This document shows, piece by piece, positions 3,905 through 21,538 of a stretch of DNA of 64,000 bases. Origin of the DNA: Leadbetterella sp. (GTDB taxonomy: Bacteria; Bacteroidota; Bacteroidia; Cytophagales; Spirosomataceae). How positions within the stretch are numbered: the stretch's first letter is position 1; every line of letters starts with the position of its first letter. The notes beneath the pieces are model-generated. The model was not told where the DNA came from. It made no database searches and saw only the letters and a program-made list of their open reading frames with translations. The stretch is taken from the NCBI GenBank assembly GCA_019638185.1, contig JAHBUH010000014.1, positions 1-64,000 on the forward strand, written 5' to 3'. Both the position numbers and the translations under genes were made by a program.

Positions 3905-4777
3905 CTACCTCCGAATCGCTTCCGCCACTTCCACCGGCAAATCAGATTCCAGAATATCGGCACCCGCAGAGAATATGCTGCGGTAAGCCTCGGCGCGGGC
4001 CTGGGGGTCTTTCAGTTTGTCGTAGACTGGGGCGGCGGAGATCATGCATCTTATGCCGCGGGCGTGGAGGAGGTCGTACATTTTTTTGTTTTCGGGCTTG
4101 TTTTCGGAGCCGATGTAGGCGATCATGTTTTTCCAGGGGACGCCGGCGGCTTCGTACTCTTTCATGGCCTCCTCGGTTTTTACAAAGGCGCTCATCATGC
4201 GTTTGGGGTTATCGTGGTAATAAAAGAGGGCCTGTTCGGCGGTGTGTACCGTTACCATCATGTAGGTGTCGGCCTTGTTTTTACGGATGATTTCGGTGAT
4301 CATCTGCATGGGTACGTCTTTCTTGTCGAGGTTCAGGACGGTTCTGCCTTTGGCCCAGTCCATAGCCTCCTGCAGGGTAGGAATCCGGTACGGGGTGAGG
4401 TTTCCTTCGGCGTCTTTCAGGCGGAGTTTTTTTACTTCTTCCCAGGTGTAGTCGGCCAGCTTGCCGGTGCCGTTGGTTGTGCGGTCCAGTGTGGCGTCAT
4501 GCAGGAGGACGATCACGCTGTCTTTGGTCAGCCGGGGATCGATCTCGAAAAAGGCCGGGGTATGGTTCAGCACATATTCGAAGCCTTCGATGGCGTTTTC
4601 GGGGTAGCCGGCGATGTGCGTGCCGCGATGCCCGCTGATGATCTTGCGGCCGTCATCGGGATGGCCGAACCAGGCACTGATGGCTTTGAAGTTTTTGAAT
4701 TTCAAGCGGTGCTTTTGCGCTTCGGAGGAGAAGGTTACGCAAAGGAGGGTCAGGAGTGATAAAAAAATCTTGTTCAT
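3905..4777 (-). CDS. Exported glycerophosphodiester phosphodiesterase (GDPD family)
   Basis: 290 residues with a cleavable signal peptide (MNKIFLSLLTLLCVTFSSEA). GDPD-fold TIM barrel with its hallmark residues: SGHRG (H50, R51), the PEN loop at 59-61, FEID (E78, D80) and LLHDATLDRTTNGTG (H93). These bind the divalent metal and the phosphodiester, giving sn-glycerol 3-phosphate plus an alcohol in classical members; the head-group specificity here is unknown. It ends the long minus-strand gene set after a 305-base gap filled with repeats, so it may have its own promoter. Its phosphodiesterase activity matches the phosphoesterase theme of that gene set. Confidence 0.88.
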   Translation of the reverse strand: MNKIFLSLLTLLCVTFSSEAQKHRLKFKNFKAISAWFGHPDDGRKIISGHRGTHIAGYPENAIEGFEYVLNHTPAFFEIDPRLTKDSVIVLLHDATLDRTTNGTGKLADYTWEEVKKLRLKDAEGNLTPYRIPTLQEAMDWAKGRTVLNLDKKDVPMQMITEIIRKNKADTYMMVTVHTAEQALFYYHDNPKRMMSAFVKTEEAMKEYEAAGVPWKNMIAYIGSENKPENKKMYDLLHARGIRCMISAAPVYDKLKDPQARAEAYRSIFSAGADILESDLPVEVAEAIRR

Positions 4778-4944
4778 AACTATAAAATAAGTTCTTAATA
4801 AATAATTCTAAATGAGTTATCAACTATCACCTCGATAGTAGTCAACCGCTAATCAGCTACTCTGGCAAGTTTCGGGTTCTCACCCTTAAATTGTACTCGG
4901 CGTGCCCCTCGTCTTCGCTCGGGGTGACAAGTGGCAGCCGCTCA

Positions 4945-5060
4945 TGTCAGTTCGAGCGCAGTCGAGAACCGAACACAAACGAACACAAGAGCGCGAAGTT
5001 TGCGAGCGAAGCTCTCGAGAACCGAACACAAACAAGCGCGAGTGACTTGTTCGTTAACCT
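4945..5060. repeat. Intergenic inverted repeat family, copy B (compound)
   Basis: TGTCAGTTCGAGCGCAGTCG at 4945 runs into GAGAACC at 4970. It is followed by GAACACAAACGAACACAAGA and a second GTTTGCGAGCGAAGCTCTCG arm ending in GAGAACC near 5033. Part of the unit is repeated and the order differs from copy A. A related CTCGGGGTGACA piece precedes it at about 4916. Together these occupy nearly all of the 4778-5082 gap, in which I see no gene. Confidence 0.8.
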
Positions 5061-5082: not shown

Positions 5083-5679
5083 TCACAATTTAGAATTCAG
5101 CAATTCCAGCGTAAATCCTTCATCATTACTTAACGTAAACCGCGTAACGGAGGAGTTCTGCTGTACTATGCGCCGGTAGTTGGCCAAAGGCATACCCAAC
5201 TTGTGCGCCATAAACAGTCGATTCACCCCGTTATGGGCTACCACCAGGAAAGTACCCTCCTGGTGCGTACCCAGCAGCTCTTCAAAAAAGGCATCTACCC
5301 GGCTCACTATCTCCTGCCCGGTTTCTCCGTTTACCCCGGCTCTGTTAGTAGAGGGATCTGCGCTCCATTTTTCCCATGAATCAGGGTGTTCTTCTATAAA
5401 CTGCTTACGGGTCTTGCCCTCCCACAATCCGAAATCTACTTCAATGAGGCGCTTATCTTTCGTCACCTCCCTGCCCGATACAATCTGCGCGGTCTTGTAG
5501 GCGCGCAGCAGCGGTGAAGAGTAAACGCCTGTAAAGTTCACGCCCTCCAACTGTCGACGTACGGCTTCGGCCTGAGCACGTCCTTTGGCATTCACCGGGA
5601 TGTCAGTACGGCCGCAGTAGCGGTTATTTTGCGCATTAAAATCGGTTTCTCCGTGTCTTAAGAGGTATATGGTCAGCAT
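5083..5679 (-). CDS. Histidine phosphatase superfamily (phosphoglycerate-mutase-like) phosphatase
   Basis: 198 residues. The LRHGETDFN signature (R8, H9, G10, E11) carries the phospho-accepting histidine. R59 and E87 are at the usual places, and the second catalytic histidine is in VVAHNGVNR (H149). Length and motifs fit CobC/PhoE-like broad phosphatases rather than true glycolytic mutases. No signal peptide, so cytoplasmic. It follows the FGGY kinase gene by 58 bases and probably removes phosphate from a sugar or polyol phosphate of the same pathway; the substrate cannot be read from sequence. Confidence 0.85.
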   Translation of the reverse strand: MLTIYLLRHGETDFNAQNNRYCGRTDIPVNAKGRAQAEAVRRQLEGVNFTGVYSSPLLRAYKTAQIVSGREVTKDKRLIEVDFGLWEGKTRKQFIEEHPDSWEKWSADPSTNRAGVNGETGQEIVSRVDAFFEELLGTHQEGTFLVVAHNGVNRLFMAHKLGMPLANYRRIVQQNSSVTRFTLSNDEGFTLELLNSKL

Positions 5680-5737: not shown

Positions 5738-7177
5738 TTAAAGGATGTTTCTTTTTTTGAGTTCAATAATAAAATTACGGTAGCTATGCTCGTAGTCACT
5801 GATCATAGACGCTACAGGTTCCACCACTTTTTCGGGCCGGATCATGGCCTCTGCCGCTTCCGAAAGCGAAGAGTAATACGTACCAGATGCCGCCAGAACC
5901 GCCGCACCAGCTGCACCGGAAGTGTTTTTCATTTTTTGCACCGGCACCTGCATTACCGTGCTTCGGATGCTCAGCCAGACATCGCTGTTGCTACCGCCCC
6001 CGGCAGAAAATACCCGGTCCACTTTTTCGCCCGAAAGCTCGCGGATGCGCTCATAGGCATAACGTTCCACATAGGCCACGCCTTCCATGCAGGCGGCAAA
6101 AAGTTCTTCCTCCGTCCATTCGGTGTTCCAGAAGCCTGAGGCCTGCGGAGCGAAGAAGGGGAATCGTTCGCCTTTCTGTAACAGCGGCCAGGCGGTCAGC
6201 CCGGTAGGAATGAGCTGGGCGGCTTTTGCGTTCAGGGCCGCCAGATCTCGATTTCCGAACAGTCGGGTTACCCAGTCGGCACCGGTATTGCTGGCTCCGC
6301 CGGGCATCCAATAGCCTTCGGGGTGGCGGTGGTTATAAATAGCGCCGGTTTCGTCGCGGATTTCGTTCCGGGTCACCCCTTTGATCACCAGCGTGGTGCC
6401 GATGGTGGTATTCCACTGCCCGGGCTGCACGGCGCCGGAGGCCACCTGGGAAACACAGCCGTCGGTCATGCCGGTGGTGACAGTGACATCGGTAGGTAAT
6501 CCCCATTTTTCAGCAAGGTCTTTCCGGAGGGGAGCTATCGGTGTGCCCGAAGGTTTTACTTCCTGCAGCCATTCCTTGCGGATGCCCAGCCCGGAAAGAT
6601 ATTCCGGCCAGGTCAGATGATGCAGGTCGAAGCCAGATTTGAGGGCATTAGTATAGTCGGTTACGGCATACTCACCGCACAAACGGCCGGTGATAAAATC
6701 GGACGCATGGATAAATTTGGACAGCTTCTCCGCCTGCTCCGGGAAATGATCCAGGAACCAAAGCATTTTGGGCAGTCCGCTGGAGGTATTGAATGCCCGG
6801 TAGCCGGGAATCCGGTTTTCTTCTGCGGCGGCTTTGCACCGGGCAGCTTCTTTATCCGACCGCTGATCGCTGTACATGAGAGCGGCGTGAAGCGGGTTAC
6901 TGTCTTTGTCTATCGGGATGATGGTGCCGGAAGTAGAGGTTACCGCCACGGCTTTTACGAGCGATAAGTCAACGGATGCGCGGGCTTCGTTTAAAACGGA
7001 TTCCATCAAGAGGGAGGTGATTTCCCACCATTCTTCCGGCGACTGCTCCTCACGCGAGTTTTCGGTGAGGGCAAAGGCCTGATCGTGGGCCGAAATGAGA
7101 AGGCCTGTTTCATCTAAAAGTGCCACTCTGGCTCCCTGGGTGCCTATGTCTATTCCTATGAAATATGCTTTGTTCAT
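5738..7177 (-). CDS. FGGY-family carbohydrate kinase, D-ribulokinase/xylulokinase-like
   Basis: 479 residues with the ASKHA fold. The phosphate-1 loop is GIDIGTQGARVAL (8-20). A TTGMTDGC segment near 240 carries the catalytic Asp, GTTLVIKG forms phosphate-2, GGASNTGADW follows, and the C-terminal adenosine motif SAGGGSNSD is near 393. The TDGC and GGASNTG pair with a YNHRHPEG segment resembles D-ribulose kinases more than classic xylulokinases. It would phosphorylate a ketose or polyol in the cytoplasm. It overlaps the preceding FGGY gene by 4 bases (ATGA), so the two kinases are translationally coupled. The substrate is inferred only from fold and context. Confidence 0.85.
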   Translation of the reverse strand: MNKAYFIGIDIGTQGARVALLDETGLLISAHDQAFALTENSREEQSPEEWWEITSLLMESVLNEARASVDLSLVKAVAVTSTSGTIIPIDKDSNPLHAALMYSDQRSDKEAARCKAAAEENRIPGYRAFNTSSGLPKMLWFLDHFPEQAEKLSKFIHASDFITGRLCGEYAVTDYTNALKSGFDLHHLTWPEYLSGLGIRKEWLQEVKPSGTPIAPLRKDLAEKWGLPTDVTVTTGMTDGCVSQVASGAVQPGQWNTTIGTTLVIKGVTRNEIRDETGAIYNHRHPEGYWMPGGASNTGADWVTRLFGNRDLAALNAKAAQLIPTGLTAWPLLQKGERFPFFAPQASGFWNTEWTEEELFAACMEGVAYVERYAYERIRELSGEKVDRVFSAGGGSNSDVWLSIRSTVMQVPVQKMKNTSGAAGAAVLAASGTYYSSLSEAAEAMIRPEKVVEPVASMISDYEHSYRNFIIELKKRNIL

Positions 7178-8634
7178 AAACTCACCTCCCCCTGCTTCCT
7201 GAAAAGCGAGCGCACGCCTGCCCAGTTAGTATACAGCCCATCATAATACTCTTTCTTATTCGTCTGCGGTTTTGCACTCAGGTAATCCGTAGGTATCGCC
7301 GCCGAAGGCAGCTCCAGCGCATCATTACAGTGCAGCGCCGAGCCGATCACCGTAGCCTGCTCAAAGCCGGAACGTACCCGCACTTCCTTCCCGGTCATAT
7401 CGGCGATGAGCTGCCGCAGGGTAGCGCTCTGAAGTCCGCCGCCACAGGCCCACAGGTAGGTTTCGCGGTGGCCGGCGCATTCGGCCAGTACTTTGTAATT
7501 TTCTACAATGGAAAAGGCGATATCCACCAGGCTGGCCCAGACAAAACTGCTTCGCTTCAGCTCATGGGTGACCGGTACGTGAAAAACAAATCCGCCGGTA
7601 GTCACAGGCGATTTCTCCGATGCGATCAGCGAACCCAGGCTGCCCACGCAGTTATCATATAAATTCTCACTCAGCTCTTTTTCGATGACATCATACGATT
7701 CGTTCGGATAAAAGACCTCTTTCAGTCGCTGGTAATTCAGTCCGGTTACCCCGGCGTTGGCTTCGAAAACGAAGCGGCCAGGTTCAATGTCGCGGCTGGT
7801 CCAGGTACGCTGCTCGTCATCGGTCAGGAAGCCCCCTTCCAGCTTCACCACGGGCGTGGTGGTTCCCGATACCAGGATCACGTCGCCGGTATGCGGACGG
7901 GTGCTTTTAATGGCCATCTGGGTATCACCGCCGCCTACCACGGCCTTCACGTGCTGGCCCAGTCCCCAGTCGGCAGCTACATCAGCCTTCACCTCCCCTA
8001 CCACTTCGCCTGACGAGCGCAGGGGCGACAGCAGCCCTTCCGCAATACCGTACCGGCTGCACAGCTCAGGGCTCCAGCTTCCTGCCGCCACATCGTACAG
8101 CAGGGTTTCGGAGGCCTGCGAGTGCTCGTACACCGCTACCCCGGAAAGCGCCCAAAGCGCCCAGTCGCTGATACTCAGAAAGGTTTCTGCCTCCTGCCAC
8201 AGTTCCGGTCGCTTTTCCCGAATACCGATCAGCTTGAACACCGAAAAAAGAGAGGTAGGATACCGGCCGCTCAGGGCATATACCCGGCCTTTATCGCCGA
8301 AGGCATCTTCCCATTCGCGCCCGCGGTGGTCGATGTTCGGCATACCGATCAGCGCCCTGCCGGTTTTGCCGATCAGCACAATTCCCTCCCGCTGGCTGGT
8401 AGACGTCACCGCCAGCAGCTTTACCTCGCCGGCCTGGGAAAGCGCCTTTCGGGTCAATGCCTTCAACGTATCCAGCAGTTCATCCGGCTTAAAAAAGATG
8501 GAATCGGGGAAAACCGTATCGCGGTGATAAATGATATCCGCACGTTCCACGCTCAGGATTTCGCCCGATGGTGTCACCACGGCCGAACGTACGTTTCCTG
8601 TTCCTATATCGAGTACTAAATAAGCTTGTTTCAT
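7174..8634 (-). CDS. FGGY-family carbohydrate kinase, second paralogue
   Basis: 486 residues. Phosphate-1 is LDIGTGNVRSAVV (about 8-20), with a TSTSQREG segment, VVGGGDTQMA (catalytic Asp), VSGTTTPVV (phosphate-2) and WACGGGLQS (adenosine motif). It is clearly FGGY, but only distantly similar to its 3' neighbour: the TDG around the catalytic Asp is GGDTQ here. This suggests a different substrate, not a recent duplication. It lies 20 bases after the hydroxyacid dehydrogenase gene. The exact sugar is not recognisable; tetritols, pentitols and ketopentoses are all handled by FGGY enzymes. Confidence 0.82.
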   Translation of the reverse strand: MKQAYLVLDIGTGNVRSAVVTPSGEILSVERADIIYHRDTVFPDSIFFKPDELLDTLKALTRKALSQAGEVKLLAVTSTSQREGIVLIGKTGRALIGMPNIDHRGREWEDAFGDKGRVYALSGRYPTSLFSVFKLIGIREKRPELWQEAETFLSISDWALWALSGVAVYEHSQASETLLYDVAAGSWSPELCSRYGIAEGLLSPLRSSGEVVGEVKADVAADWGLGQHVKAVVGGGDTQMAIKSTRPHTGDVILVSGTTTPVVKLEGGFLTDDEQRTWTSRDIEPGRFVFEANAGVTGLNYQRLKEVFYPNESYDVIEKELSENLYDNCVGSLGSLIASEKSPVTTGGFVFHVPVTHELKRSSFVWASLVDIAFSIVENYKVLAECAGHRETYLWACGGGLQSATLRQLIADMTGKEVRVRSGFEQATVIGSALHCNDALELPSAAIPTDYLSAKPQTNKKEYYDGLYTNWAGVRSLFRKQGEVSL

Positions 8635-8654: not shown

Positions 8655-9656
8655 TCAAATTCTCTCCAATATCTGACGGTTTGCAATGCGTTTCGGATTC
8701 ACTTCTCCCTTCTCCAGCCATTCCGACAGCGCCTCGTTCAGAATCCGCACGTGATGGTCTTCTACCTCGTGCGTAGCACCGGCTATGTGCGGCGTGGCCA
8801 GCACGTTCCCGGAACGGATGATCTTGTAATCCAGCGCATCGGGTGGCTCATGGTCAAACACATCCAGGATAGCGCCGCGAATCTTTTTCTGTTCCAGCGC
8901 TTCGAACAGGGCATTCCGGTCCACCACCACGGCCCGGGCCGTATTGACAAAGATAGCCTCCGGCTTCATTAAACGAAACAGGTGTGCATCGATCAGCCCT
9001 TTGGTTTCGTCTGTTACGGGTAAATGTACCGACACAATGTCGTTTTCCGCAAACACTTCCTCCAGGCTGCTGTTTTTATAGCCCGGAAAAACGGCCGGAT
9101 CCACGTAAGGGTCGTAATAGGCGATCTCGCAGGGAAAATCTTCTATGCGGGCTGCAATCAGCTGCCCGATGGCCCCGAAACCCACAAAACCAACTTTTTT
9201 ACCCGCCAACTCATTTCCTTTGAAAATCAGGTAGGACGTGTGAGCACCTTCATCCCATTTGCCCGATTTCAGCCATTCGGTAGCAAATATCGTGTCACGC
9301 AGGAAGGTGATCACATTAGCAATGAACAACTCTGCCACCGCCTGGGCATTCCGCGCCGGGGTATAAAACACCGGGATATGGTGCAGGCTGGCGGTTTCCA
9401 GCGACACATTGGAGGGCGTACCCCGGCATACGCCAATAAATTTCAGGTGCGGAAAAGCATTAATCACCTTATCGGTTACGTGGTCATGCTCCGTGATGAG
9501 GGCCTCCGCGCCCGACTCTTGCAGAAGCGCAAGCAGCTCGTCTTCATTAAAGGCCCTGCCATTCACTTTCCACGGCCGGTACACCGTTTCGCCCAAAATC
9601 CGGTTTAGTTCTCTTAATCCCCCTTCGTTATATGGAGAGGTTACCAGTACTTTCAT
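8655..9656 (-). CDS. NAD-dependent D-2-hydroxyacid dehydrogenase
   Basis: 333 residues, two-domain D-2-hydroxyacid dehydrogenase. The Rossmann motif is GFGAIG (G159, G161, G164). The catalytic triad is R241 (NTARAVVVD), E270 (DVFDHEPP) and H290 (TPHIAGATHE). The C-terminus has no ACT domain, so it is not a regulated SerA. Oxidation or reduction of a 2-hydroxy acid, such as a sugar acid, fits its place between a polyol-permease-like transporter and two sugar kinases. It follows the transporter by 65 bases, part of which is a repeat. Confidence 0.88.
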   Translation of the reverse strand: MKVLVTSPYNEGGLRELNRILGETVYRPWKVNGRAFNEDELLALLQESGAEALITEHDHVTDKVINAFPHLKFIGVCRGTPSNVSLETASLHHIPVFYTPARNAQAVAELFIANVITFLRDTIFATEWLKSGKWDEGAHTSYLIFKGNELAGKKVGFVGFGAIGQLIAARIEDFPCEIAYYDPYVDPAVFPGYKNSSLEEVFAENDIVSVHLPVTDETKGLIDAHLFRLMKPEAIFVNTARAVVVDRNALFEALEQKKIRGAILDVFDHEPPDALDYKIIRSGNVLATPHIAGATHEVEDHHVRILNEALSEWLEKGEVNPKRIANRQILERI

Positions 9657-9700: not shown

Positions 9701-9747
9701 TTAGTTCCGAGTGGATAGTTGTCAATTATCCATTGTCAATTCTTTGG
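9701..9747. repeat. TTAGTTCCG...CAATTCTTT spacer repeat, copy 1 (overlaps transporter 3' end)
   Basis: TTAGTTCCG at 9701, then internal GTCAATTATC/GTCAATTCTT copies. A related spacer lies at 15474-15527 in the same operon, again following an MFS transporter/metabolic gene junction. The last seven codons and stop of the transporter gene (KELTMDN, ending at 9722) are made of this repeat. Confidence 0.55.
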
Positions 9748-10957
9748 CTCCCGGAATAGTAATAAACCGCGTCAGCACCGCACTCAAAAAGTACAGCCCG
9801 GCCAGTATCCACACCACCCCTTCAGCTCCGGCACTTCCTATAAATATTCTCACAATGGCCGGGCCCGCAAAAACGGCCAGCCCCGCGCCCAGGTTTAAAA
9901 CCGACATGGCCGCGCCCTTATCTTTCTGCACCAGTGAAGGCACCAGGGCCGACAGCGGTACGTAGCCCGCCAGGCAGGCACCCCATAAAATACCGGCAGC
10001 CAATACCAGTGCATAACTGCCCCCGCCTATCTGTGGCGAATAATACAGCAGGAGCGTAGTGAGCCCGCACCCTACCCCGCCAAACCAGATGATGGTTTTC
10101 TGCCAGCCCATCCGGTCACCCACAAATCCGAAAATGAGGTTAAAGGCAATATTGCTCGTAAAAATGGTGCCCCAGATGTACAGCCACTGGGTGGTATTAA
10201 ACCCGTGCGACTCCATGTACACCGGAAGAAATACCGGGAAGGCAAACTGGGCGGTGGTATTGATCACCCGTACGATTCCCCCCAGGGCCACCTTGGGCTC
10301 TTCCTTCATAATGGTCAGCCCTTTCAGCAGCTCCTGCCACTTGCTGCCCGCAGAAGCCGTATTGGCCGGAAAGCGGGCTTTGTTAAACACCAGCGCCAGC
10401 AAAGCGCCAATAAGCACCCACAGCACTGCGCTCCAGAGCGCACTGATGTGCCCCAGGTTTTCAATGGCCCAGCTGGAATAAAAGGCGCCCAGCACGTTCA
10501 GGCCACCGGTAAACACAAACCAGAACCAGCCTACGGCCCGCCCGAGTGCTCCCTGCGGCACCACGTAAGATATCCATACCAAAAAGGAATAGGCAAACAG
10601 CGGGTAACCAAAACCGCGCAGGGCATACGTGATATAGAGGGTGGTTATATCCAGTGAACCCAGTCCGCGGGAAATAAACAGCACCGTACCGATCAGGTAG
10701 ATCACCAGCCCCAACAGCATGGTGCGCCGCGGGTTCAGGGTTTCGGTCAACACGCCCGAGAACCAGGAAGAAATGGCAATGGTCACTCCGTACAGTGAAA
10801 AAAGTGTGGCCGTGTTCTGGATGGTCAGCCCCCGGTCTATCAGGTAAGGGCTCAGCCAGCCCTGTTCCATGCCATCGCCCATCATAAAGATAAGGATGCC
10901 CAGGTAACCCCACAGCAGGTTAGCGGGAAGGCCTATTTTATTGGCAAAATTATTCAT
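9722..10957 (-). CDS. MFS transporter, polyol permease family-like
   Basis: 411 residues, 12 predicted membrane segments. The N-terminus (LPANLLWGYLGILIFMMGDG), a YALRGFGYPLFAYSFLVWIS stretch and GWFWFVFTGGLNVLG closely follow the pattern of ribitol, xylitol and arabitol permeases (RbtT/DalT group). VRVINTTAQFAFPVFLPV and KGAAMSVLNLGAGLAVFAGP also fit. This is proton symport across the inner membrane. With two FGGY kinases and a hydroxyacid dehydrogenase downstream, a polyol or its phosphate-free product is the likely cargo. The C-terminal KELTMDN tail derives from an intergenic repeat. Confidence 0.8.
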   Translation of the reverse strand: MNNFANKIGLPANLLWGYLGILIFMMGDGMEQGWLSPYLIDRGLTIQNTATLFSLYGVTIAISSWFSGVLTETLNPRRTMLLGLVIYLIGTVLFISRGLGSLDITTLYITYALRGFGYPLFAYSFLVWISYVVPQGALGRAVGWFWFVFTGGLNVLGAFYSSWAIENLGHISALWSAVLWVLIGALLALVFNKARFPANTASAGSKWQELLKGLTIMKEEPKVALGGIVRVINTTAQFAFPVFLPVYMESHGFNTTQWLYIWGTIFTSNIAFNLIFGFVGDRMGWQKTIIWFGGVGCGLTTLLLYYSPQIGGGSYALVLAAGILWGACLAGYVPLSALVPSLVQKDKGAAMSVLNLGAGLAVFAGPAIVRIFIGSAGAEGVVWILAGLYFLSAVLTRFITIPGAKELTMDN

Positions 10958-10992: not shown

Positions 10993-11856
10993 TTAAAAGG
11001 TTACCATAGAGGTAACGGGTAAATGGTCTGACGGATAGCGGTCATCTTTATACGTATCCGATATTACTTTGTAATCTTCCACCTTAAAATGACGACTCAG
11101 GAATATAAAGTCGATCCTGTATTTGGGAGACCCCTGAAATACCCCTCCTGAAAATGCGGTTTCTTCTACCCCTTCTCCCGGCTTTTGGGTGATGTCACGG
11201 GCATCATTAAGCATTTCTTTTACCGCAGTGACCTGGGGAGAGCCGGGAGCCGAATTAAAATCTCCCGTACAGATCACGGGGGTGTCTCCGGCTATCTCCC
11301 GGATCTTTCGGGCCAGAAGCGGGCCTGATTCGGCCCGGGCTTCTTTAAGCCGCCAGTAAAAATGCGTATTGAAAAAATAAAACTCCCTGCCTGTTTCTTT
11401 AACCCTGAACCTGATCCATTGCCCAATGCGATGGTCAGAAGCATCCCAGCCTACACTTTGCACATCGGGAGTCGGACTGAGCCAGAAAACACCGCTGTCC
11501 AGAACTTCAAAGAGCGCCGTACGATAAAATATAGCACAGTTATGCTGATTGGCAGAAACCACTCCATACGAATGGGCAAGGTAGTCAAAACCTACCAGGC
11601 GTTGCTTCATATCGGCCAGTTGTCTTTCGCTCCCTTCCTGCGTTCCTACGATATCAAAACCGTGTGTAGTAATCACTTTCACCAGGGCGTCTTTTCGCAG
11701 GTTCCACCCGTTTCCCGACTGTTCGTCAGCCTGGGTAGCATACCGGATATTATAGGTAGCCACCCTGAAGCGGCTGTCGTTATTAGAAACTTCCGGCCTT
11801 TTACCGTCGTTCCACAGCATCAAAAGCACTAAACCTATCCGCAGCAAGCTCATCAT
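10993..11856 (-). CDS. Endonuclease/exonuclease/phosphatase (EEP) family hydrolase, first paralogue
   Basis: 287 residues. A hydrophobic N-terminus (SLLRIGLVLLMLW) suggests export. EEP motifs in order: ATYNIRY, GTQEG (metal-binding Glu), FNTHFYW, CTGDFNSAPGS (catalytic Asp-Asn) and YPSDHLPV (Asp-His). Exported EEP proteins of this type in Bacteroidota act on phosphoesters such as phosphodiesters, inositol phosphates or sphingomyelin-like lipids. The fold does not reveal which. It lies 22 bases after a paralogue that has the same motifs. Both sit in the SusCD operon, so they probably split phosphate bonds of the imported substrate. Confidence 0.85.
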   Translation of the reverse strand: MMSLLRIGLVLLMLWNDGKRPEVSNNDSRFRVATYNIRYATQADEQSGNGWNLRKDALVKVITTHGFDIVGTQEGSERQLADMKQRLVGFDYLAHSYGVVSANQHNCAIFYRTALFEVLDSGVFWLSPTPDVQSVGWDASDHRIGQWIRFRVKETGREFYFFNTHFYWRLKEARAESGPLLARKIREIAGDTPVICTGDFNSAPGSPQVTAVKEMLNDARDITQKPGEGVEETAFSGGVFQGSPKYRIDFIFLSRHFKVEDYKVISDTYKDDRYPSDHLPVTSMVTF

Positions 11857-12781: not shown

Positions 12782-14179
12782 TTATTCGTTTATTTCTTCA
12801 AAATCACGCAGGAAAGCCCCGGATTCTACCAGTTCTGCCTGCAATTGTTCTACTGAGACCTCTCCTACCTGCACGCCTGTTCGTATGGCCAGTTTTGCTG
12901 CCCTTCCGGCGGCCTCGCCCATGGCCATACACGGCGCCATCACCCGGATAGCCGACATGGCCTCGTGGGTGGTAGATATACTCCGGCCGGCCACAATCAG
13001 GTTTTTCACCTTTTGCGGAATCAATGAGCGGAAGGGAATATCGTAGCAGTCGCCACACCACGTAAGCGTACAGCCGCCACCGTCAGGATGATGAATATCC
13101 AGCGGGTAGCTGGCCACGGCAATAGCGTCTTCAAAATGCCGGCAGCTCAGGATGTCTTCCTGGGTCATGGTGTACCGGCCATTGATCCGGCGGGTTTCCC
13201 GGATACCTACAAAGGGCGCCGTTTTCAGGAAGTACGCATTTTCAAAGCCCGGAACATACTCAATCAGGTATTTCTGGATATCGTGAATCTGGCGGCGGCC
13301 TTCGGTTTCACCATGGCTGAGGCTTTCCGGATCGGTACCGTTCACACCGTTAATGCGGGTCATGTTGATCCAGGCTTCGCCTTTCCGGAGGCCGGTGATG
13401 ATGATGGTCCGCTCTACGGGCAGGTGCAGGCCCTCTTCGGCTGCTTTCTGGATCAGGCTGCGAAGGCCCACCACGATGAACTGGTTGTTTTGCCCGAAAT
13501 ATTCCGCCGGGATAAAGTCGGTCAGGTAGGTCCGGGGTTCTTCGGCAATGCTCAGCCGCAGCTTTTCCGTATCTACCCCGCCCAGGCAGAACATCAGGGT
13601 GGGCGGTTGCACGCCACCGGTTTCGTTGCCGTATTCACAGGGCACGCCGGAGCGGTAGGCCACGTCGGCATCACCGGTACAGTCAATGATGGTTTTAGCC
13701 AGGATGGCCTCGCGACCTGCCTTGCTTTCAATGATGATGCCTTTCAGCTCGTCGCCTTCCATCACTACATCGGAGCAGAAGGTATAGAACATCACTTCCA
13801 CACCGGCTTCCTGCAGCATTTCCAGGGCCACGGTCTTCACCGCTTCCGGCTCTACCAGGGTCAGGCTCATGTGCAGCGGGCACGGCCGGTGCTCGCTGGA
13901 AGCATCCACTGCTTTCAGGCGATCAATGAATTTCTGGGGGATGCCCTTGATGATCTGGTTGCCTTTCTGGCCCAGGAAACCCAGGATAGGCAGGCCGATG
14001 GTCATGTTACCGCCGAGGAAGCTCCGGCTATCCAGCAGCAAAACGTTCAGGCCGTCTTCTACCGCCGCCAGGGCCGCGGTGATCCCGGATGGGCCGCCTC
14101 CCACTACCAGCACATCTACTTCTTTTCTTACCTGTATCTCCCTTGCGGGCTCTGTGATTGTCTTTTGTAGGTTTGACAT
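12782..14179 (-). CDS. FAD-dependent oxidoreductase (FAD_oxidored family)
   Basis: 465 residues. The dinucleotide-binding motif GGGPSG is at 27-32 with the acidic strand end VLLLD about 20 residues on. The CTGDADVAYRSGVP motif is typical of PF12831-type oxidoreductases, and the C-terminal FAD contact is near VAGRSISTTHEA and APCMAMGEAAG. No signal peptide. These enzymes are common in Bacteroidota saccharide loci, where they are thought to oxidise sugars or polyols, though few have a proven substrate. It lies 28 bases after the ACS-type transporter, so the two may act together: import, then oxidation. Confidence 0.85.
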   Translation of the reverse strand: MSNLQKTITEPAREIQVRKEVDVLVVGGGPSGITAALAAVEDGLNVLLLDSRSFLGGNMTIGLPILGFLGQKGNQIIKGIPQKFIDRLKAVDASSEHRPCPLHMSLTLVEPEAVKTVALEMLQEAGVEVMFYTFCSDVVMEGDELKGIIIESKAGREAILAKTIIDCTGDADVAYRSGVPCEYGNETGGVQPPTLMFCLGGVDTEKLRLSIAEEPRTYLTDFIPAEYFGQNNQFIVVGLRSLIQKAAEEGLHLPVERTIIITGLRKGEAWINMTRINGVNGTDPESLSHGETEGRRQIHDIQKYLIEYVPGFENAYFLKTAPFVGIRETRRINGRYTMTQEDILSCRHFEDAIAVASYPLDIHHPDGGGCTLTWCGDCYDIPFRSLIPQKVKNLIVAGRSISTTHEAMSAIRVMAPCMAMGEAAGRAAKLAIRTGVQVGEVSVEQLQAELVESGAFLRDFEEINE

Positions 14180-14207: not shown

Positions 14208-15467
14208 TTATTCTGTTTTTCTTGTTATGCCGGGTCTTTCCTTCCGCACCATCACCCACAGCAGCAGCACTGCCAGCGGATGCATCACCGCCATGGCCAG
14301 AAATATCTTTTCGGTACCCATGGTACCCATCATTTGCCCCACAAAGTAATTAAACAGCACCGCGCCTACCGCGCCAAAGCCCCCGGCAATGCCCAGCACA
14401 CTGGCCACATTGGCCACCGGAAACGCCTCAGCGATCACCACGCTCAGCGAAAACAGCCAGCTCAGGCAGGCCACCGCCACCAGGCTGAAGAGCAGAATGG
14501 TCACCCACGGCCCCGACAAATAGGGCGTTACTGCGCAGAGGGGCGCCAGTACCGCCACTGTGGTCAGCATGATCTTCCGGGCCCGCAGCGGCTCCATACC
14601 CTTTCTCACCAGGCGGTCTGACCAGGCCGAGGTGCCGATAGCCCCCAAATCCGCGGCCAGGAAAGGAATCCAGCCGAACATGCCCACCTGGGCCAGGGTA
14701 AGACCCGATTCTTCCTGCAGGTAGCCGGGCAGCCAGAACAGGCAGAAATACCAGACGGGATCGCTCACAAAACGGATCAGGATAACGCCCCACAGGCTGC
14801 GGGTTTTCCATAGTTCTGCCCAGCGAAATTTCACCGTGCTGTCTGCCTGGCCTTCTTCCGCACCGGTTATGCCAGCCGGCGGTTCCCGGTAAACCAGCTT
14901 CCAGAGCAAGGCAATGAAAAGCCCGGTTATACCCATGGCCACAAAGGCCATTTTCCAGCTGTAGGTAATGGCCAGCCAGGCGATCAGCGGCGGGGCAATG
15001 ATAGCACCGATACTGCTGCCGGCCACGCAGAAGCTGTTAGCCGTAGCCCGGAGCTTGCCCGGAAACCAGACGGTCACCACTTTGATCTGGGCCGGGAAAT
15101 TAGTAGGCTCGGCCATGCCCAGCATGCCCCTGAAAAAGCCGAACTGCTTTACGGTGGAAGAAAGGCCGCCGCCCAGACAGGCCAGCGACCACGCAATGAT
15201 GCCGTAAAACATCACCTTCTTCTCACCGAATTTATCAACCATCCATCCCGTTACCGGATACATGGCTGCATAACAAATGGTAAAAATGTTGACAATCACC
15301 GCATACCCCTCGTCGTTCAGTGAAAACTCGGTCTTCAGCATGGGTTTCAGGATAGACACCAGCTGGCGGTCCATGTAATTAAATACGATGGCCACGAAAA
15401 CCACAGCGATGATGAGCCACCGGCGGGTATCAGGGCGGATGCCTGTGTATGCGTTATTTATCTTCAT
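14208..15467 (-). CDS. MFS transporter, anion:cation symporter (ACS/hexuronate) type
   Basis: 419 residues, 12 membrane segments. The N-terminal RRWLIIAVVFVAIVFNYMDR and the loop GWMVDKFGEKKVMF are classic for the ACS family (ExuT, GudP and similar). The FFRGMLGMAEPTNFPAQIKV stretch and CVAGSSIGAIIAPP also match. Such transporters carry organic anions: hexuronates, glucarate, and in relatives sugar or glycerol phosphates. It is the first of two transporters in the operon and differs in family from the one at 9722-10957, so the locus probably imports two chemically different products, one of them an acid. Confidence 0.86.
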   Translation of the reverse strand: MKINNAYTGIRPDTRRWLIIAVVFVAIVFNYMDRQLVSILKPMLKTEFSLNDEGYAVIVNIFTICYAAMYPVTGWMVDKFGEKKVMFYGIIAWSLACLGGGLSSTVKQFGFFRGMLGMAEPTNFPAQIKVVTVWFPGKLRATANSFCVAGSSIGAIIAPPLIAWLAITYSWKMAFVAMGITGLFIALLWKLVYREPPAGITGAEEGQADSTVKFRWAELWKTRSLWGVILIRFVSDPVWYFCLFWLPGYLQEESGLTLAQVGMFGWIPFLAADLGAIGTSAWSDRLVRKGMEPLRARKIMLTTVAVLAPLCAVTPYLSGPWVTILLFSLVAVACLSWLFSLSVVIAEAFPVANVASVLGIAGGFGAVGAVLFNYFVGQMMGTMGTEKIFLAMAVMHPLAVLLLWVMVRKERPGITRKTE

Positions 15468-15549: not shown

Positions 15550-16659
15550 TTAATCCAATTTCATCACAAATTCATTTTTGGCATCTCTCTTCCACGCATA
15601 CTGCTGCGTAGTGGGAGAAATGGCAAATAAAGGCGAGAAGGTTTTTACTTTCACGGTTTTGTTATCGGGAAGGAATTCCATGATTCTCAGCCAGCCGTCG
15701 CCGCCGTTTCCGTCGCGGTGCCCACCGCCATAGCTTTGCGCATCAAAAAGCATCTGGTGAACGGTTTTCCCGGCTTTGTTCTTATCGTTCCGGTATCCTT
15801 CCCCTGAAATATGTCCGCACAAGACCATAGAGAAATTTACAGACGGGTAAACCAGTTTCTCCCAGATCTCCTGCCCGTTATTCGACTCCGGCAGCGTGAT
15901 CCGGGCCGATTTCTCCACCACTTTATCCACGTAATAGGGCTGGTACATAAACCATTTATTTTCACCCGTGGTACGCTCATCTTTCGTATTCAGGTAGGCA
16001 TGAGTCACCAGCACGATCCGGTGGTTTTTATATTGTTCCAGCCCGGCTACCCGTTTGGCCCAGCTGATCACGGTATCGCGGGGTGCATATTCCACGGTCA
16101 TGAACAGGTAGTCTTTGCCGTTCAGGGACTTCAGCTCCAGGGCCGAGTTTTCCAGCGTATGAATATCCTGCACGTTCCGGGTATTCTGCACCAGGTGTTT
16201 GGTATTCAGGAAGTTTTTATCGGCCGGAAAATATTCGGGATAACGGGTGGTTCTTAAACCGTCTTTATTGATGGAATAGTCGTGATTACCCGATGCGGCC
16301 AGGTAAGGTACCTTCCCGTCCAGCCTCTTGAAGGAATTAGAGATATACTCCCACTGGCGCGGCGCCGATGTATTTCCGTCAATACCGGGCACCACAATAT
16401 CATCCAGCTCCACCAGGTCACCGGTACAAACCACCATCCGGACGTTCAGGCTGTCCAGGTTTTCTTCTATCCAGGCCATCATCAGGTCAAAGACGGGTTG
16501 GTTCCGGGTCCATTTTACATAGTTCTGCGGATCGGGAATCATGATCACAGACCAGGAGTCTTTGTTCTCCAGCCGGGGTTTTACGTAGCTCTGCTGGGCA
16601 TATCCACTGCCGGCCAGGAGGAGGAACAAAACAAAAACGATAATCTTTTTCATAGTCAA
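15550..16659 (-). CDS. Exported calcineurin-like metallophosphoesterase
   Basis: 369 residues with a signal peptide (KKIIVFVLFLLLAGSGYAQ). Metallophosphoesterase motifs: IPDPQNY (the D-x-H position reads D-P-Q), VCTGDLVE (GDxxE/D), AASGNHDYS (GNHD), VTHAYL and CGHISGEG (GHxH-like). It would hydrolyse phosphomonoesters or diesters outside the inner membrane. It is the first gene after SusD, the usual place for the enzyme that attacks the substrate bound by the SusCD complex. Its presence in place of a glycosidase points to a phosphate-linked substrate. Confidence 0.87.
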   Translation of the reverse strand: MTMKKIIVFVLFLLLAGSGYAQQSYVKPRLENKDSWSVIMIPDPQNYVKWTRNQPVFDLMMAWIEENLDSLNVRMVVCTGDLVELDDIVVPGIDGNTSAPRQWEYISNSFKRLDGKVPYLAASGNHDYSINKDGLRTTRYPEYFPADKNFLNTKHLVQNTRNVQDIHTLENSALELKSLNGKDYLFMTVEYAPRDTVISWAKRVAGLEQYKNHRIVLVTHAYLNTKDERTTGENKWFMYQPYYVDKVVEKSARITLPESNNGQEIWEKLVYPSVNFSMVLCGHISGEGYRNDKNKAGKTVHQMLFDAQSYGGGHRDGNGGDGWLRIMEFLPDNKTVKVKTFSPLFAISPTTQQYAWKRDAKNEFVMKLD

Positions 16660-16713: not shown

Positions 16714-18459
16714 TCAATATCCCGGATTCTGTGTCAGGTTCTTATTGGCATTTATCTCTGCCAGCGGAATCGGCCAGTATTCGTCTTTGTTGGTTTTGTA
16801 AACCACCTGCTGGGTATTGAAATATTTTAACGCCTCGGTTGAATTGTAGACCGGCGTGTAATTTTCGTCAATTTTTACCAGCACCGCTTTCTTCCACGGA
16901 GTGGCCGCCCGGTTCAGGTAAAGTACCCCGTTCATGACGTCCTGGGCAATGCCCCATCTCCGGATATCGTACCATCGCAGGCCGTCGTCAGCCAGCTCTA
17001 CTTTTCTTTCGTAGCGCAACGCCGTTCTCATCTCCGCCTGGTTGAGGCCGCTTTTCAGGTCGGGCATCCCGGCCCGTTTCCGGATCTGGTTAATGGCATC
17101 GTACACGGAGGCGTCAATAGCATTGGCTTCTATTTTGGCTTCTGCATAGATCAATAATAACTCGGCAAAACGGAATATCCCGCAGTTCATATCCGATACA
17201 CCGGAAACAGAGTTCAGGGCATAATCAGCTATATCCGAATGCTTTCTCCACAAATACCCGCTGAAAGAACGGTAGGCATTGGTAGCGTCGGTGTTAGCTA
17301 CCTGGGAAGGGGTGCTGCTTTGCCCGTTAATCACCGGCCAGTAGTTATTCACCCGTGTAAAACTGGAATGCGGTTCAAACTGGATGCCCAGCAGCCGGGA
17401 ATGCGGACGTACGCAGTAGAGGTCCAGCCGGGGATCACGGTTCACAAAAGGATTCTCGGCATTGTACAAAGGCGACTGGTCTATGGGTAGCCCGTCAATG
17501 GCCTGGAACGAATCGATCAGGTTCTGGGTGGGTCCCCAATAGCATACTCCTTTGCCCAGCCGGGATCCCATAAAGTAGCCCTGGTTATGGGTATTCCCGC
17601 TGATGGATTTATTGTATTCGGCCACCCATATCCATTCCTTGCTGGATTTATAGCCTTCGTATCCGAAGATATTGGAGCTTGCCGGCTCACCCACATCATA
17701 GGTTTTGTTGGCAAAGCTCTTAGTCGCATTGAACGGGGTCAGTTCATAGACCCCTTTCGACAGCTGGATGGCTTTTGCCGCGGCTTCTGCCGCCACGGTA
17801 TACTGCTTGCTGTACAGAGCCACACGCGCTTTGAGCATATAGGCCACCACGCTTCCGGCCCGTACGTTCCCGTAAGCCGACTGCGATGCCGGCAGCTTAT
17901 CAGCCACGGCGGTCATTTCATCAATGATCCATTTCTGAATTTCACTTTTAGGCGTGCGGGGCACGTCAGTTTCTCCGAGCTTAAGCCCATGGGTTACCAG
18001 GGGCACATCGCCGTACAGCTCGATCAGCTGCGAATAGGCATACGCCCGGATCACCCGCAGTTCGGCGTTCAGCTGGTTATAAGCGGCCTCCTGCATGGTA
18101 GATTTAATGCTCTCCAGGTTATCCAGTACCGAGTGACACCGGGCAATGGTCTTGTAATGAACCTGCCAGGGCTTGATAGCCGATGCATTAGTGGTGGTCA
18201 GCGAGCTGGTGATCGGCGAAGTATAGTTTTCACCCGGACGCGCATAACCGATATCCGTAATGTTATCCATCACGTGCCAGATAGGCGTAGAGGCCGCATC
18301 CAGCAGGGTAAGTCCCTTGTAGGCTCCCAGCAGGCCCATTTCCGCCTCCTGCTGCGTGGCAGGGAAAGTGCCCGTAGTAGGCCCGTTTAGCGGGAACCGA
18401 TCCAGTTCACAGGACGTGAAAGCAAATAAAGCCAGCGTAAGTATGATTATCTTTTTCAT
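16714..18459 (-). CDS. SusD/RagB-family nutrient-binding outer-membrane lipoprotein
   Basis: 581 residues from the ATG at 18459, chosen because it gives the lipoprotein signal MKKIIILTLALFAFTSC with the lipobox Cys in place. A start at 18483 would add eight residues before the signal and overlap SusC. N-terminal TPR-like helices (KGLTLLDAAS onward) and the C-terminal SusD features (RFAELLLIYAEAKIEA, LADDGLRWYDIRRWG, WPIPLAEINANKNLTQNPGY) are typical. It forms the lid on the SusC channel and picks the substrate at the cell surface. It starts 7 bases after the SusC stop. Confidence 0.95.
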   Translation of the reverse strand: MKKIIILTLALFAFTSCELDRFPLNGPTTGTFPATQQEAEMGLLGAYKGLTLLDAASTPIWHVMDNITDIGYARPGENYTSPITSSLTTTNASAIKPWQVHYKTIARCHSVLDNLESIKSTMQEAAYNQLNAELRVIRAYAYSQLIELYGDVPLVTHGLKLGETDVPRTPKSEIQKWIIDEMTAVADKLPASQSAYGNVRAGSVVAYMLKARVALYSKQYTVAAEAAAKAIQLSKGVYELTPFNATKSFANKTYDVGEPASSNIFGYEGYKSSKEWIWVAEYNKSISGNTHNQGYFMGSRLGKGVCYWGPTQNLIDSFQAIDGLPIDQSPLYNAENPFVNRDPRLDLYCVRPHSRLLGIQFEPHSSFTRVNNYWPVINGQSSTPSQVANTDATNAYRSFSGYLWRKHSDIADYALNSVSGVSDMNCGIFRFAELLLIYAEAKIEANAIDASVYDAINQIRKRAGMPDLKSGLNQAEMRTALRYERKVELADDGLRWYDIRRWGIAQDVMNGVLYLNRAATPWKKAVLVKIDENYTPVYNSTEALKYFNTQQVVYKTNKDEYWPIPLAEINANKNLTQNPGY

Positions 18460-18466
18460 GTTCTGT

Positions 18467-21400
18467 TTAGAATTTAATATCAAGTCCTATTGAATAAACT
18501 TTTACCTGCGGATAGAAATTTCCGCCCCCCAGAGACACCCCGTCAGCAGCATCAGCGTTATAGGCCACCTCCGGATCATATCCCTGCCAGAACTTCGTAA
18601 AGGTGAGGATATTCTGCCCGTTCACATAAATGAGCGCCTTATTTAATTTCAATTTGCTGATCACATTCTTCGGTAAAGAATAGCCTAATTGTATATTCTT
18701 AAGCCGCAAGTAGGAGGCATCTTTCATCCAGAAAGTAGAGTTCTGCTGGTTATTTGCCGAGGTGGTGGACAGACGGGGCAGTGAAGCATCGGGATTCTCG
18801 GGTGTCCAGTAATCCAGCTGCCAGGGTTTGATAGAGCTGGAATTGATGGTAGGAATAACGTAATGCGAGTTCAGGTAGCCGTTTGCCTTTCCTACGCCTT
18901 GCAGGAAGAGATTCAGGCTCAGCCCTTTCCAGCCCAGGTCCAGGTTTGTCCCATAGGTATACCGCGGAATAGTACTCCCGATCACCACCTTGTCGTCATC
19001 GGTGATCTTACCGTCAGGAATCGGGTTCCCCGCCGCATCAAAAGCCCCGGCGATGTCCTTATACCGGATATCGCCCGGTTTCAGGGTACCGAACTGCGTA
19101 GGGCCGGCATCGATTTCCGCCTGGTTCTGGTACAATCCGTCGGCTACAAGGCCAAAAATAGAGTTCACGGCGTAGCCTTCTTCCTGTCTTAGCAGCGTTC
19201 CTGAAGTCTGGCCTTTCATATCCACAATTTTGTTTTTAACATCCGAGATATTGAAGCCCACGCCCAGCTTGAAGTCGCCCCAGCTGTCATCATAATTCAG
19301 TCCCAGTTCCCATCCTTTGTTACTTACTTTTGCGGCGTTCTGGTAAGGCGCATTTAAGCCGGTCAGCTGCGACGTGTACAGCGTAAGCAGGATGCCGTCA
19401 GTCATTTTATCGTACCAGTCGGCGGTAATAGAGAACTTATTGAACAGGGTAGCGTCCAGCCCGATGCCCTTCATGGTGGTTTCTTCCCACTTCAGATCCG
19501 GGTTAGACATCGTATTCAGGGTCACCAGCTGGTATATTTTTTCAGCCATAGAGATACTACCGATGGCCAGGGTTTCAGCAAAAGGATAATACGAGCTGCC
19601 GATGTTCTGGTTACCCAGCTTACCCCACGAAGCCCGGAGTTTCAACTGGTTAAAAATAGGGCGAAGGTCCTGCATGAACGATTCTTCGGAGATCCGCCAG
19701 CCGGCTGAAAACGAAGGGAAAGACGCCCAGCGATTGGCTTTAATGAAGCGGGAGGTTCCGTCGTAACGGATATTGGCCTCGAAAAGATAACGGTTGTCAA
19801 AATCATAATTCAGCCTGCCGAAGGTAGACACCAGGAGCCATTGTGCCTGGGTTCCGTCGTTATTACGGGTCTCGTTATCGGCTCCGGCCGTCAGCACCTC
19901 ATAGGTATCGTACGTAAAATCTCTCCGGTAGCCCATCAGGTATTTTTCATCGTAGGTCTCACGCGAGGCGCCCCCCAGGATACTGAAGTTATGCTTGCCC
20001 CAGTTCTTAAAGGCAGAAGCCAGGAACTGGTAGTTGCCGAAGTTATACCGGTAGGCCGTTTCCGTTAATTCGGTGAATGTATTCGCCGCACCGGACTGGC
20101 TGCCGTCATCGTTATAGGTCATGATGCTCTTAACGAAATTATGCGTATTGGTGGTCCGGTACCGAGGCGCCACTACCCCGGTCAGGTTAAGCCAGCTCAA
20201 AGGCTTCCAGGTAGCACTGAAATTAGCCTGCAGCTCCATGGTATTGGCTTTCCGGTTACCACCCTCATTGATCATGGCTACCGGGTTAATATTCACCCAT
20301 CCTTCTGACCACAGGCCGTTTCTGCGGATGGGAATATTAGTAGGCATCCGGCCCAGGTAATTCCAGATGGTTCCTTCACTGGCTATCTGCAGGCGGTCGC
20401 CTTTGGTATACGACAAATCCATTTTCAGTGACAGTTTGTCGTTCACCTTAACGTCCATATTGTTCCGCAGGATATAGCGTTCGTAGCCCGTATTTTTAAT
20501 GATACCGTCCTGGTTAATATAGCTGAAAGAAGGCATGATCCGGATCTTATCGGTATGAGCCGACAGCGATACAAAATGATTCTGGGTAAAGCCGGAACCG
20601 TTCAGAATGGCCTTTTGCCAGTCAAAATTGTCTGGATCTGCCGCATATTTCTGCCTGAAATCTTCAATGGCCTGGTCGCTGTAAAGCGCGTAACCGTTAT
20701 CATTCATGTTGGCTTCGTTGAACACCCGCATATAGGTCAGACCGTCGGTCACTTTCGGCACATTGGTGGCCGACTGCCAGCCCACGTAATCGCGGTAATT
20801 CACCTCCATCTTACCGGCTGCGGCTCTTTTGGTGGTGATCAGGACCACCCCATTAGCCGCCCGTGAACCGTAAATAGCGGCAGATGCGGCATCTTTCAGC
20901 ACAGAGATGGATTCGATGAGGTTGATATCGATCTGGTTGATCAGGCCGGGCACACCGTCAATCAGCACCAGGGGGTTACTGTCGGACCCGCCGAACGAGT
21001 TAATCCCCCGTATCCGGATCTGGCCGCCGTCTGCACCGGGAGAACCCGTTTGCGAGGTCACCGTAACCCCGGGCGCTACCCCCTGCAAGGCATTGGAAGT
21101 GGAAATAATGGGCCGTCTCTCCAGTTGCTCACCCCCTATGGCCGACACTGCCCCGGTCAGGTTTACTTTCTTCTGGGTACCGTATCCTACTACCACCACT
21201 TCTTCCAGCGACTGCGTATCTTCCCGGAGCTCAATGCTGAGCTGGGTCTGGTTGGTGACAATTATTTCCCGGCTGATATAGCCTATAAATGAAACCAGCA
21301 GGATATCTCCTTCTTTCGCAGCCAGCTGGAACTTACCGTTTACGTCGGTCATGGCGGCCGTGTTAGTCCCCTTCACCACCACATTTGCCCCGATCACGGG

Positions 21401-21538
21401 TTCATTTTTTTCATCCGTAACCACGCCGGAGATCCGGTTCTGGGCGAATGCCCCTGAAAAACAGGATAACATGCATATCAAAACCAGAATAACTTTCGGC
21501 GGGTGAAAGCTTTTTCGTTTTAATAAAGAGTTCATCAT
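18467..21538 (-). CDS. SusC/RagA-family TonB-dependent outer-membrane transporter
   Basis: 1023 residues. Signal peptide up to about residue 33 (CMLSCFSGAFAQ), an N-terminal carboxypeptidase-regulatory-like beta domain (RISGVVTDEKNEPVIGANVV), the SusC signature EEVVVVGYGTQKKVNLTGAV, then plug (GGQIRIRGINSF, NPLVLIDGVPG) and a 22-strand barrel ending in KVYSIGLDIKF. There is no anti-sigma-interacting N-terminal extension, so control is more likely by the divergent DeoR regulator than by an ECF sigma factor. It leads the operon. The ATG at 21535 is an equally good start. Confidence 0.96.
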   Translation of the reverse strand: MMNSLLKRKSFHPPKVILVLICMLSCFSGAFAQNRISGVVTDEKNEPVIGANVVVKGTNTAAMTDVNGKFQLAAKEGDILLVSFIGYISREIIVTNQTQLSIELREDTQSLEEVVVVGYGTQKKVNLTGAVSAIGGEQLERRPIISTSNALQGVAPGVTVTSQTGSPGADGGQIRIRGINSFGGSDSNPLVLIDGVPGLINQIDINLIESISVLKDAASAAIYGSRAANGVVLITTKRAAAGKMEVNYRDYVGWQSATNVPKVTDGLTYMRVFNEANMNDNGYALYSDQAIEDFRQKYAADPDNFDWQKAILNGSGFTQNHFVSLSAHTDKIRIMPSFSYINQDGIIKNTGYERYILRNNMDVKVNDKLSLKMDLSYTKGDRLQIASEGTIWNYLGRMPTNIPIRRNGLWSEGWVNINPVAMINEGGNRKANTMELQANFSATWKPLSWLNLTGVVAPRYRTTNTHNFVKSIMTYNDDGSQSGAANTFTELTETAYRYNFGNYQFLASAFKNWGKHNFSILGGASRETYDEKYLMGYRRDFTYDTYEVLTAGADNETRNNDGTQAQWLLVSTFGRLNYDFDNRYLFEANIRYDGTSRFIKANRWASFPSFSAGWRISEESFMQDLRPIFNQLKLRASWGKLGNQNIGSSYYPFAETLAIGSISMAEKIYQLVTLNTMSNPDLKWEETTMKGIGLDATLFNKFSITADWYDKMTDGILLTLYTSQLTGLNAPYQNAAKVSNKGWELGLNYDDSWGDFKLGVGFNISDVKNKIVDMKGQTSGTLLRQEEGYAVNSIFGLVADGLYQNQAEIDAGPTQFGTLKPGDIRYKDIAGAFDAAGNPIPDGKITDDDKVVIGSTIPRYTYGTNLDLGWKGLSLNLFLQGVGKANGYLNSHYVIPTINSSSIKPWQLDYWTPENPDASLPRLSTTSANNQQNSTFWMKDASYLRLKNIQLGYSLPKNVISKLKLNKALIYVNGQNILTFTKFWQGYDPEVAYNADAADGVSLGGGNFYPQVKVYSIGLDIKF

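Follow-up and report, generated by a model that had tools for sequence, protein, structure and literature searches.

Which compound is handled by a SusC/SusD locus that encodes phosphoesterases and sugar kinases and no glycosidase? The question is raised by a stretch of 64,000 nucleotides from Leadbetterella sp. (Spirosomataceae; contig JAHBUH010000014.1), here called the window, in which 13 intact genes follow one another in the same direction on the minus strand (3905-21538), from SusC (beginning at 21538) to GDPD (ending at 3905). By Pfam and NCBIfam families these are, in order, SusC and SusD, a calcineurin-type phosphoesterase (MetP), a major facilitator superfamily (MFS) carrier (MFSgal), an FAD-dependent oxidoreductase (FADox), two hydrolases of the endonuclease/exonuclease/phosphatase (EEP) fold (EEP2, EEP1), a second MFS carrier (RbtT), a 2-hydroxyacid dehydrogenase (2HDH), two FGGY kinases (FGGY2, FGGY1), a histidine phosphatase (HisP) and a glycerophosphodiester phosphodiesterase-like protein (GDPD). 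Intergenic gaps range from -17 to 82 bp, except for 305 bp before GDPD. None of the 13 genes matches a glycoside hydrolase or polysaccharide lyase family (Pfam, E <= 0.001); concerning the definition of a polysaccharide utilisation locus, the SusC/SusD pair is thus present and the glycoside hydrolase or lyase absent. An earlier note on this DNA had listed the same genes, all of which are confirmed on one strand with intact frames and family matches, and had rightly called them free of glycosidases, but it had overlooked a divergent DeoR-family gene (21872-22633). The answer favoured here, with moderate confidence, is a DeoR-linked utilisation locus for small phosphate esters, probably glycerophosphodiester-like and/or phosphorylated polyols or sugars.

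Chance grouping of these genes is unlikely, because both the gene set and its order are conserved in other genomes. Relatives of FGGY2 were found (the host counted in each case) in 2 of 10 genomes of the genus (E <= 1e-40), in 10 of 291 genomes of the order (at least 47% identity, the next listed match having 27%) and in 3 of 395 genomes of the phylum (E <= 1e-100). A contig search with FGGY2 as query gave 20 loci, and the comparison set (tblastn, identity limits 40-50%) comprised 31 (20 + 11), one locus (L065) being left out as a duplicate of L049 (Dyadobacter sp. CY323), to which it is equal across 19,901 bases. FGGY2 is present in all 31 by selection; FGGY1 and HisP likewise occur in 31, 2HDH in 30, RbtT in 28 and GDPD in 26, whereas among the accessory genes FADox, MFSgal and EEP2 occur in 19 each, MetP in 12 (including one 30-residue end at the edge of L072), SusC in 9, SusD in 8 and EEP1 in none. 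A DeoR homologue of more than 50% identity is found in 18 loci. Contig or fetch ends truncate several loci, such that missing SusC, DeoR and MetP genes are in part an artefact. In the Chitinophagaceae loci and in a congener (G291) the set is conserved and the order nearly so, with MetP situated after SusD in the window and G291 and after EEP2 in Chitinophagaceae. The cluster is therefore real and conserved beyond chance, and a recurrence of the same gene order in other genomes, which the earlier note had proposed as a check, is found in Bacteroidota for the set and much of the order.

The most constant unit is RbtT-2HDH-FGGY2-FGGY1-HisP, usually with GDPD, whereas SusCD, MetP, the EEPs, MFSgal and FADox are variable; MFSgal and FADox share one and the same set of 19 loci and look like a sub-module. 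Eight of the 31 loci, one from Agriterribacter (L045) and seven from the window's own family (L049, L064, L066-L070), consist of a bare core of DeoR, RbtT, 2HDH, FGGY2, FGGY1, HisP and GDPD, and possess neither MFSgal, FADox, an EEP or MetP nor a close SusCD pair. In L066, another outer-membrane barrel gene lies between RbtT and DeoR, and in L049 a SusC-like match of 26% is situated further away. This distribution would make the core older than the accessory layer. GDPD is the sole exported-type enzyme that stays with the bare core in these eight loci, and its retention without SusCD, EEP, calcineurin-type enzyme and second MFS carrier suggests a small soluble phosphodiester as substrate, at least there. 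GDPD itself (3905-4777, 290 aa; PF03009, 74 bits) has a leader-like N-terminus by eye, has as nearest solved chain 3mz2 (E 3e-100), and keeps H50, E60, E78, D80 and H93 invariant in 17 rows.

The window locus contains five phosphoesterase genes from four superfamilies (PF00149, PF03372 twice, PF03009 and PF00300). Export was judged by eye on the translations, no signal-peptide predictor being used, and four of the products (MetP, EEP1, EEP2 and GDPD) apparently leave the cytosol, one more than the three previously counted, whereas HisP looks cytosolic. EEP1 (10993-11856; PF03372) matches the solved chains 3mpr (E 3e-45) and 4c1r, a mannosyl-6-phosphatase (E 5e-45); EEP2 (11879-12778; PF03372), with a twin-arginine-like leader by eye, matches 3g6s (E 5e-31) and again 4c1r (E 2e-20). 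Because the nearest solved EEPs include a mannosyl-6-phosphatase, both may be monoesterases as well as diesterases. MetP (15550-16659; PF00149, E 4e-7), whose true start is probably two codons inside the open reading frame (ORF), keeps the stretches GDLV, GNHD and GHISG invariant in 9 rows. A sequence search of solved structures gave no relative of it; the best structural matches of its low-confidence model (pLDDT 66.4) are purple acid phosphatases, which back the fold and nothing further. Two Pedobacter loci carry additional enzymes of these kinds, a type I phosphodiesterase and a three-domain calcineurin enzyme in L051 and a further EEP in L054. The host genome (4.22 Mb) yields, at E <= 0.001, 9 EEP and 5 GDPD matches, of which the window locus holds 2 and 1, respectively, as well as 30 SusD matches, 29 of them above the cut-off. 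One further SusD match (C23:145448-146666) has an EEP about 120 bp away and is a second candidate for a SusCD-phosphoesterase locus. A second GDPD (L002; C39, about 94157-95751) directly adjoins an XylB-like kinase, such that a GDPD stands next to an FGGY kinase twice in this genome.

Five phosphoesterase genes would also fit a locus whose purpose is phosphate itself, the sugar enzymes merely disposing of the carbon part. This has a precedent in the Pus clusters of Flavobacterium, in which SusCD is combined with phosphomono- and diesterases and which are described as induced solely under phosphate depletion (PMC8115612). However, the regulator adjoining the window locus is of DeoR type, the most constant part of the module consists of cytosolic carbon-type enzymes, and the passages on Pus clusters consulted in that source name no sugar kinases or polyol carriers; phosphate scavenging is thus considered unlikely as the purpose of the locus.

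Concerning the cytosolic core, 2HDH (8655-9656, 333 aa; PF02826, 176 bits) is a D-isomer-type 2-hydroxyacid dehydrogenase, in which R241, E270 and H290, which we take to be the catalytic triad of the family, are invariant in 27 of 27 rows; its retention points to a 2-hydroxy- or 2-oxo-acid as one of the intermediates. FGGY2 (7174-8634, 486 aa; PF00370/PF02782) is a distant FGGY kinase nearest to LsrK, with the autoinducer-2 kinase 5ya0 as nearest solved chain (E 6e-29) and with R82, E83 and D237, which align with the REG stretch and an Asp of LsrK, invariant in 12 rows. An assignment as LsrK autoinducer-2 kinase was rejected at 139.3 bits, far below the cut-off of 528 (NF008187). FGGY1 (5738-7177, 479 aa; PF00370/PF02782) resembles XylB and ribulose kinases; its nearest solved chains, 5htr (E 3e-54) and 5htn (E 6e-47), are taken to be the AtXK-1 and SePSK of PMC4880283, where D-ribulose kinase activity and D-ribulose contacts at Asp221 and Ser222 are reported for SePSK. 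Pairwise alignment (solved-chain numbering being 2 higher than in that publication) places D239 of FGGY1 at Asp221 and a glycine (G240) at Ser222. HisP (5083-5679, 198 aa; PF00300, 196 bits) is a CobC-like histidine phosphatase of branch 1 with no leader by eye; its score against the alpha-ribazole phosphatase CobC is 153.5 bits, under the cut-off of 162.9 (TIGR03162). As GlpK and ribulokinase (both above cut-off) and an XylB-like kinase (below cut-off) are encoded separately in the genome, FGGY1 and FGGY2 are probably non-housekeeping copies which serve something else.

RbtT (9722-10957) passes the cut-off of 375 for the RbtT/DalT/CsbX subfamily with 547.9 bits (TIGR00897), and a relative of 66% identity on a Pseudalkalibacillus plasmid has RpiB, DhaKL and an alcohol dehydrogenase as neighbours, in keeping with a carrier for polyols. 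MFSgal (14208-15467) is nearest to D-galactonate-type carriers (TIGR00893, 218 bits, under the cut-off of 395). FADox (12782-14179) has no leader, covers the full PF12831 profile (428 bits) as the sole full-length match among 10 in the host genome (E <= 0.001), and gives weak matches to solved chains (best E 9e-7 across 41 residues).

A polyol carrier of this subfamily, together with a kinase closest to AtXK-1 and the D-ribulose kinase SePSK, would agree with a teichoic-acid-type polyol phosphate polymer that is cut outside, RbtT taking up the ribitol or glycerol for phosphorylation; phosphoglycerol teichoic acids are a substrate of the glycerophosphodiesterase GlpQ (PMC7086022). This reading is at odds with the retained 2-hydroxyacid triad of 2HDH, with the glycine of FGGY1 at the position of Ser222 of SePSK, and with the eight bare-core loci that do without the window-type SusCD. 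Use of ribitol or arabinitol normally needs a polyol dehydrogenase. A ribitol teichoic acid is therefore weakened by a profile search that gave no short-chain dehydrogenase/reductase (SDR) or zinc alcohol dehydrogenase family (pentitol/polyol dehydrogenase) among the 13 genes; a Pfam test of 40 flanking or inserted genes in 16 loci, a subset of the neighbours, gave as dehydrogenase-type genes an aldolase-SDR fusion (L048) and a GFO/IDH/MocA gene (L078). Such a polymer is regarded as very improbable. The phosphate-linked substrate assumed in the earlier note thus gains from the five phosphoesterases, the extra ones in Pedobacter, the kinases within the set and the conservation of the set, whereas neither a polymer nor a teichoic acid is shown.

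The locus for small phosphate esters would operate as follows. The compound would be bound and carried across the outer membrane by a TonB-linked transporter of the SusC/RagA family (18467-21538; TIGR04056, 960 bits) and the SusD lipoprotein (16714-18483; PF07980, 175 bits; start probably at an internal Met, the ninth residue). The exported MetP, EEP1, EEP2 and GDPD would remove phosphate or split diesters, RbtT (and MFSgal) would import the freed polyol or sugar acid, and 2HDH, FGGY2, FGGY1 and HisP would turn it into a phosphorylated metabolite of the central pathways, such that the freed part would be used for carbon and possibly phosphate, too. While gene content, order, conservation and retained catalytic residues are read directly from the sequence, we infer from them the phosphoester substrate, enzyme export, the direction in which the pathway runs, the control by DeoR and the use of the carbon. 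The DeoR/GlpR-family protein on the plus strand (PF00455, 152 bits; PF08220, 63 bits) is a probable repressor. It is separated from SusC by 333 bp (21539-21871) with four TTTCATTT/AAATGAAA octamers, three in one orientation and one in the other. Scans for promoter-like (17 vs. a shuffle mean of 17.6) and terminator-like motifs (25 vs. 21.3) were uninformative.

In a tree of 2HDH, FGGY2 and FGGY1 (29 rows, 1281 columns; L046, L052 and L056 excluded), the window and G291 fall with a support of 100/100 inside a clade of 12 rows, the rest of which are Chitinophagaceae and one record titled Williamsia, and stand away from Dyadobacter. Because the window nests in this clade and 2 of 10 congeners possess the locus, it was probably transferred between families. 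Beyond Bacteroidota, a plasmid of Streptomyces sp. KN37 groups relatives of RbtT (49% identical), DeoR (28%), HisP (38%) and 2HDH (36%) with two FGGY kinases, of which FGGYb is 37% identical to FGGY1. On a plasmid of Streptomyces NBC_00053, a 2HDH homologue adjoins an FGGY kinase and a gene of the aldolase-II family, near an RbtT relative. On a Klebsiella plasmid (L085:5887-9029), an aldolase-II-family gene, above the cut-off for methylthioribulose 1-phosphate dehydratase, an FGGY kinase and a 2HDH homologue (35%) stand in a row, and on a megaplasmid of Enterococcus raffinosus (L057:8006-14675) homologues of 2HDH (42%) and FGGY2 (31%) share a row with an L-fuculose-phosphate-type aldolase, the S-methyl-5-thioribose kinase MtnK and the matching isomerase MtnA, possibly an extended dihydroxyacetone phosphate (DHAP) shunt. 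Judged by these homologies, 2HDH and FGGY form a recurrent pair with variable partner steps, which in two plasmid cases are thioribose- or deoxypentose-type enzymes. It is proposed, tentatively, that the core represents a new catabolic route of Bacteroidota, with a similar make-up in Streptomyces, by which a small polyol or C4/C5 sugar acid freed from a phosphodiester is imported by RbtT and passed to 2HDH, the two FGGY kinases and the phosphatase, a series of steps that fits none of the pathways compared here. Further FGGY matches, in Staphylococcus (L058), Roseateles (L059) and Alloyangia (L060), were rejected, their neighbourhoods being unrelated or of the lsr kind. As to RbtT, its relatives in Pseudalkalibacillus, Peribacillus, two Klebsiella, Pantoea, Streptomyces angustmyceticus, Rhodococcus, Acetobacter and Priestia stand in other surroundings, that of Rhodococcus beside an FGGY kinase, a DeoR gene, a zinc dehydrogenase and an aldolase-family gene.

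Several observations weigh against a phosphoester locus of the kind favoured here. GDPD is absent from 5 of the 31 loci, and in two of these (L039 and L071) RbtT is missing as well. The KN37 cluster was rejected as a strict orthologue, since FGGYa is only 24% identical to FGGY2 and 27% to FGGY1; the KN37 stretch contains no gene annotated as phosphodiesterase. The EEP and calcineurin folds include nucleases and other hydrolases, and in G291 GDPD is followed by a gene of the nucleoside-hydrolase family whose start resembles a leader (L062:14338-15282), such that a nucleotide-type substrate would also be allowed. A shared DeoR operator is not claimed, as 13 of the 18 further regions compared lack the TTTCATTT octamer. 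In L043, a sulfatase-family gene is inserted between FADox and EEP2. Furthermore, L055 and L078/79 have genes of rhamnosidase families next to them, and genes resembling those of the rhamnose pathway border L048 and, as judged from ORF lengths alone, L050 and L053; these rhamnose-type neighbours could be due to chance or to a link with plant polymers. Together with the matches of the EEPs to a mannosyl-6-phosphatase, perhaps a remover of decorations, the neighbours of L048, L055 and L078/79 would accord with an ordinary glycan or glycoside locus, in which the phosphoesterases strip decorations and the glycosidases are encoded elsewhere; but glycosidase families occur in just 2 of the 16 loci (L055 and L078) among the flanking genes tested, and this explanation is rated as quite improbable.

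Some other genes lie in or near these loci. In the Pedobacter locus L051, an MR_MLE gene (17925-19022) of the enolase superfamily, which includes sugar-acid dehydratases, is situated near DeoR. In the window, the first 3000 positions (a UvrD-like helicase at 463-1836, an ORF without Pfam family at 1881-2591 and a helix-turn-helix gene at 2698-3144) have a G+C content of 0.31, compared with 0.49-0.56 in the locus, and may be a separately acquired piece. Genes for the large and the FAD subunit of a molybdopterin hydroxylase are found on the minus strand at 28628-31969.

The locus would join outer-membrane capture of phosphoesters in Bacteroidota to catabolism of polyols or sugar acids, which are usually studied apart, and its cytosolic core, with no substrate assigned to it, recurs and has a similar counterpart even in another phylum. 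If the substrate were identified, a source of carbon, and perhaps of phosphate, would be known for these environmental Bacteroidota, and two FGGY kinases and a subgroup of 2HDH would gain functions.

Among known systems, the pentitol operons rbt and dal share with the locus an RbtT-family carrier (here above the cut-off), FGGY kinases and an own regulator, whereas they possess a pentitol dehydrogenase and the window locus instead 2HDH, HisP and phosphodiesterases. In agrocinopine (acc) catabolism, the phosphodiesterase AccF splits a sugar phosphodiester to a sugar phosphate (PMC4526662, PMC7356202); as described there, import precedes cleavage, whereas in the window locus cleavage is apparently exported and uptake would involve SusCD and MFS carriers. 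The DHAP shunt of 5-deoxypentoses, as presented in PMC12632272 and PMC6079011, comprises an aldolase, MtnK and MtnA; genes of these types (MtnK, MtnA and a fuculose-phosphate-type aldolase) adjoin the 2HDH and FGGY2 homologues in E. raffinosus, whereas a profile search found neither MtnK, MtnA nor a class II aldolase among the 13 genes of the window. In the best-ranked openly licensed papers on the cytosolic set, on SusCD with phosphate enzymes and on teichoic acid, the set is not described, an absence that counts for little. The suggestion that the system is undescribed has to be narrowed, because SusCD pairs beside phosphomono- and diesterases, which the window locus shares by family, are already published for the Flavobacterium Pus clusters (PMC8115612). 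Those clusters are reported to be induced by phosphate depletion, whereas new in the window locus is the coupling of a putative SusCD phosphoester system to a DeoR regulator, a polyol-type carrier and a core of two kinases, 2HDH and a phosphatase.

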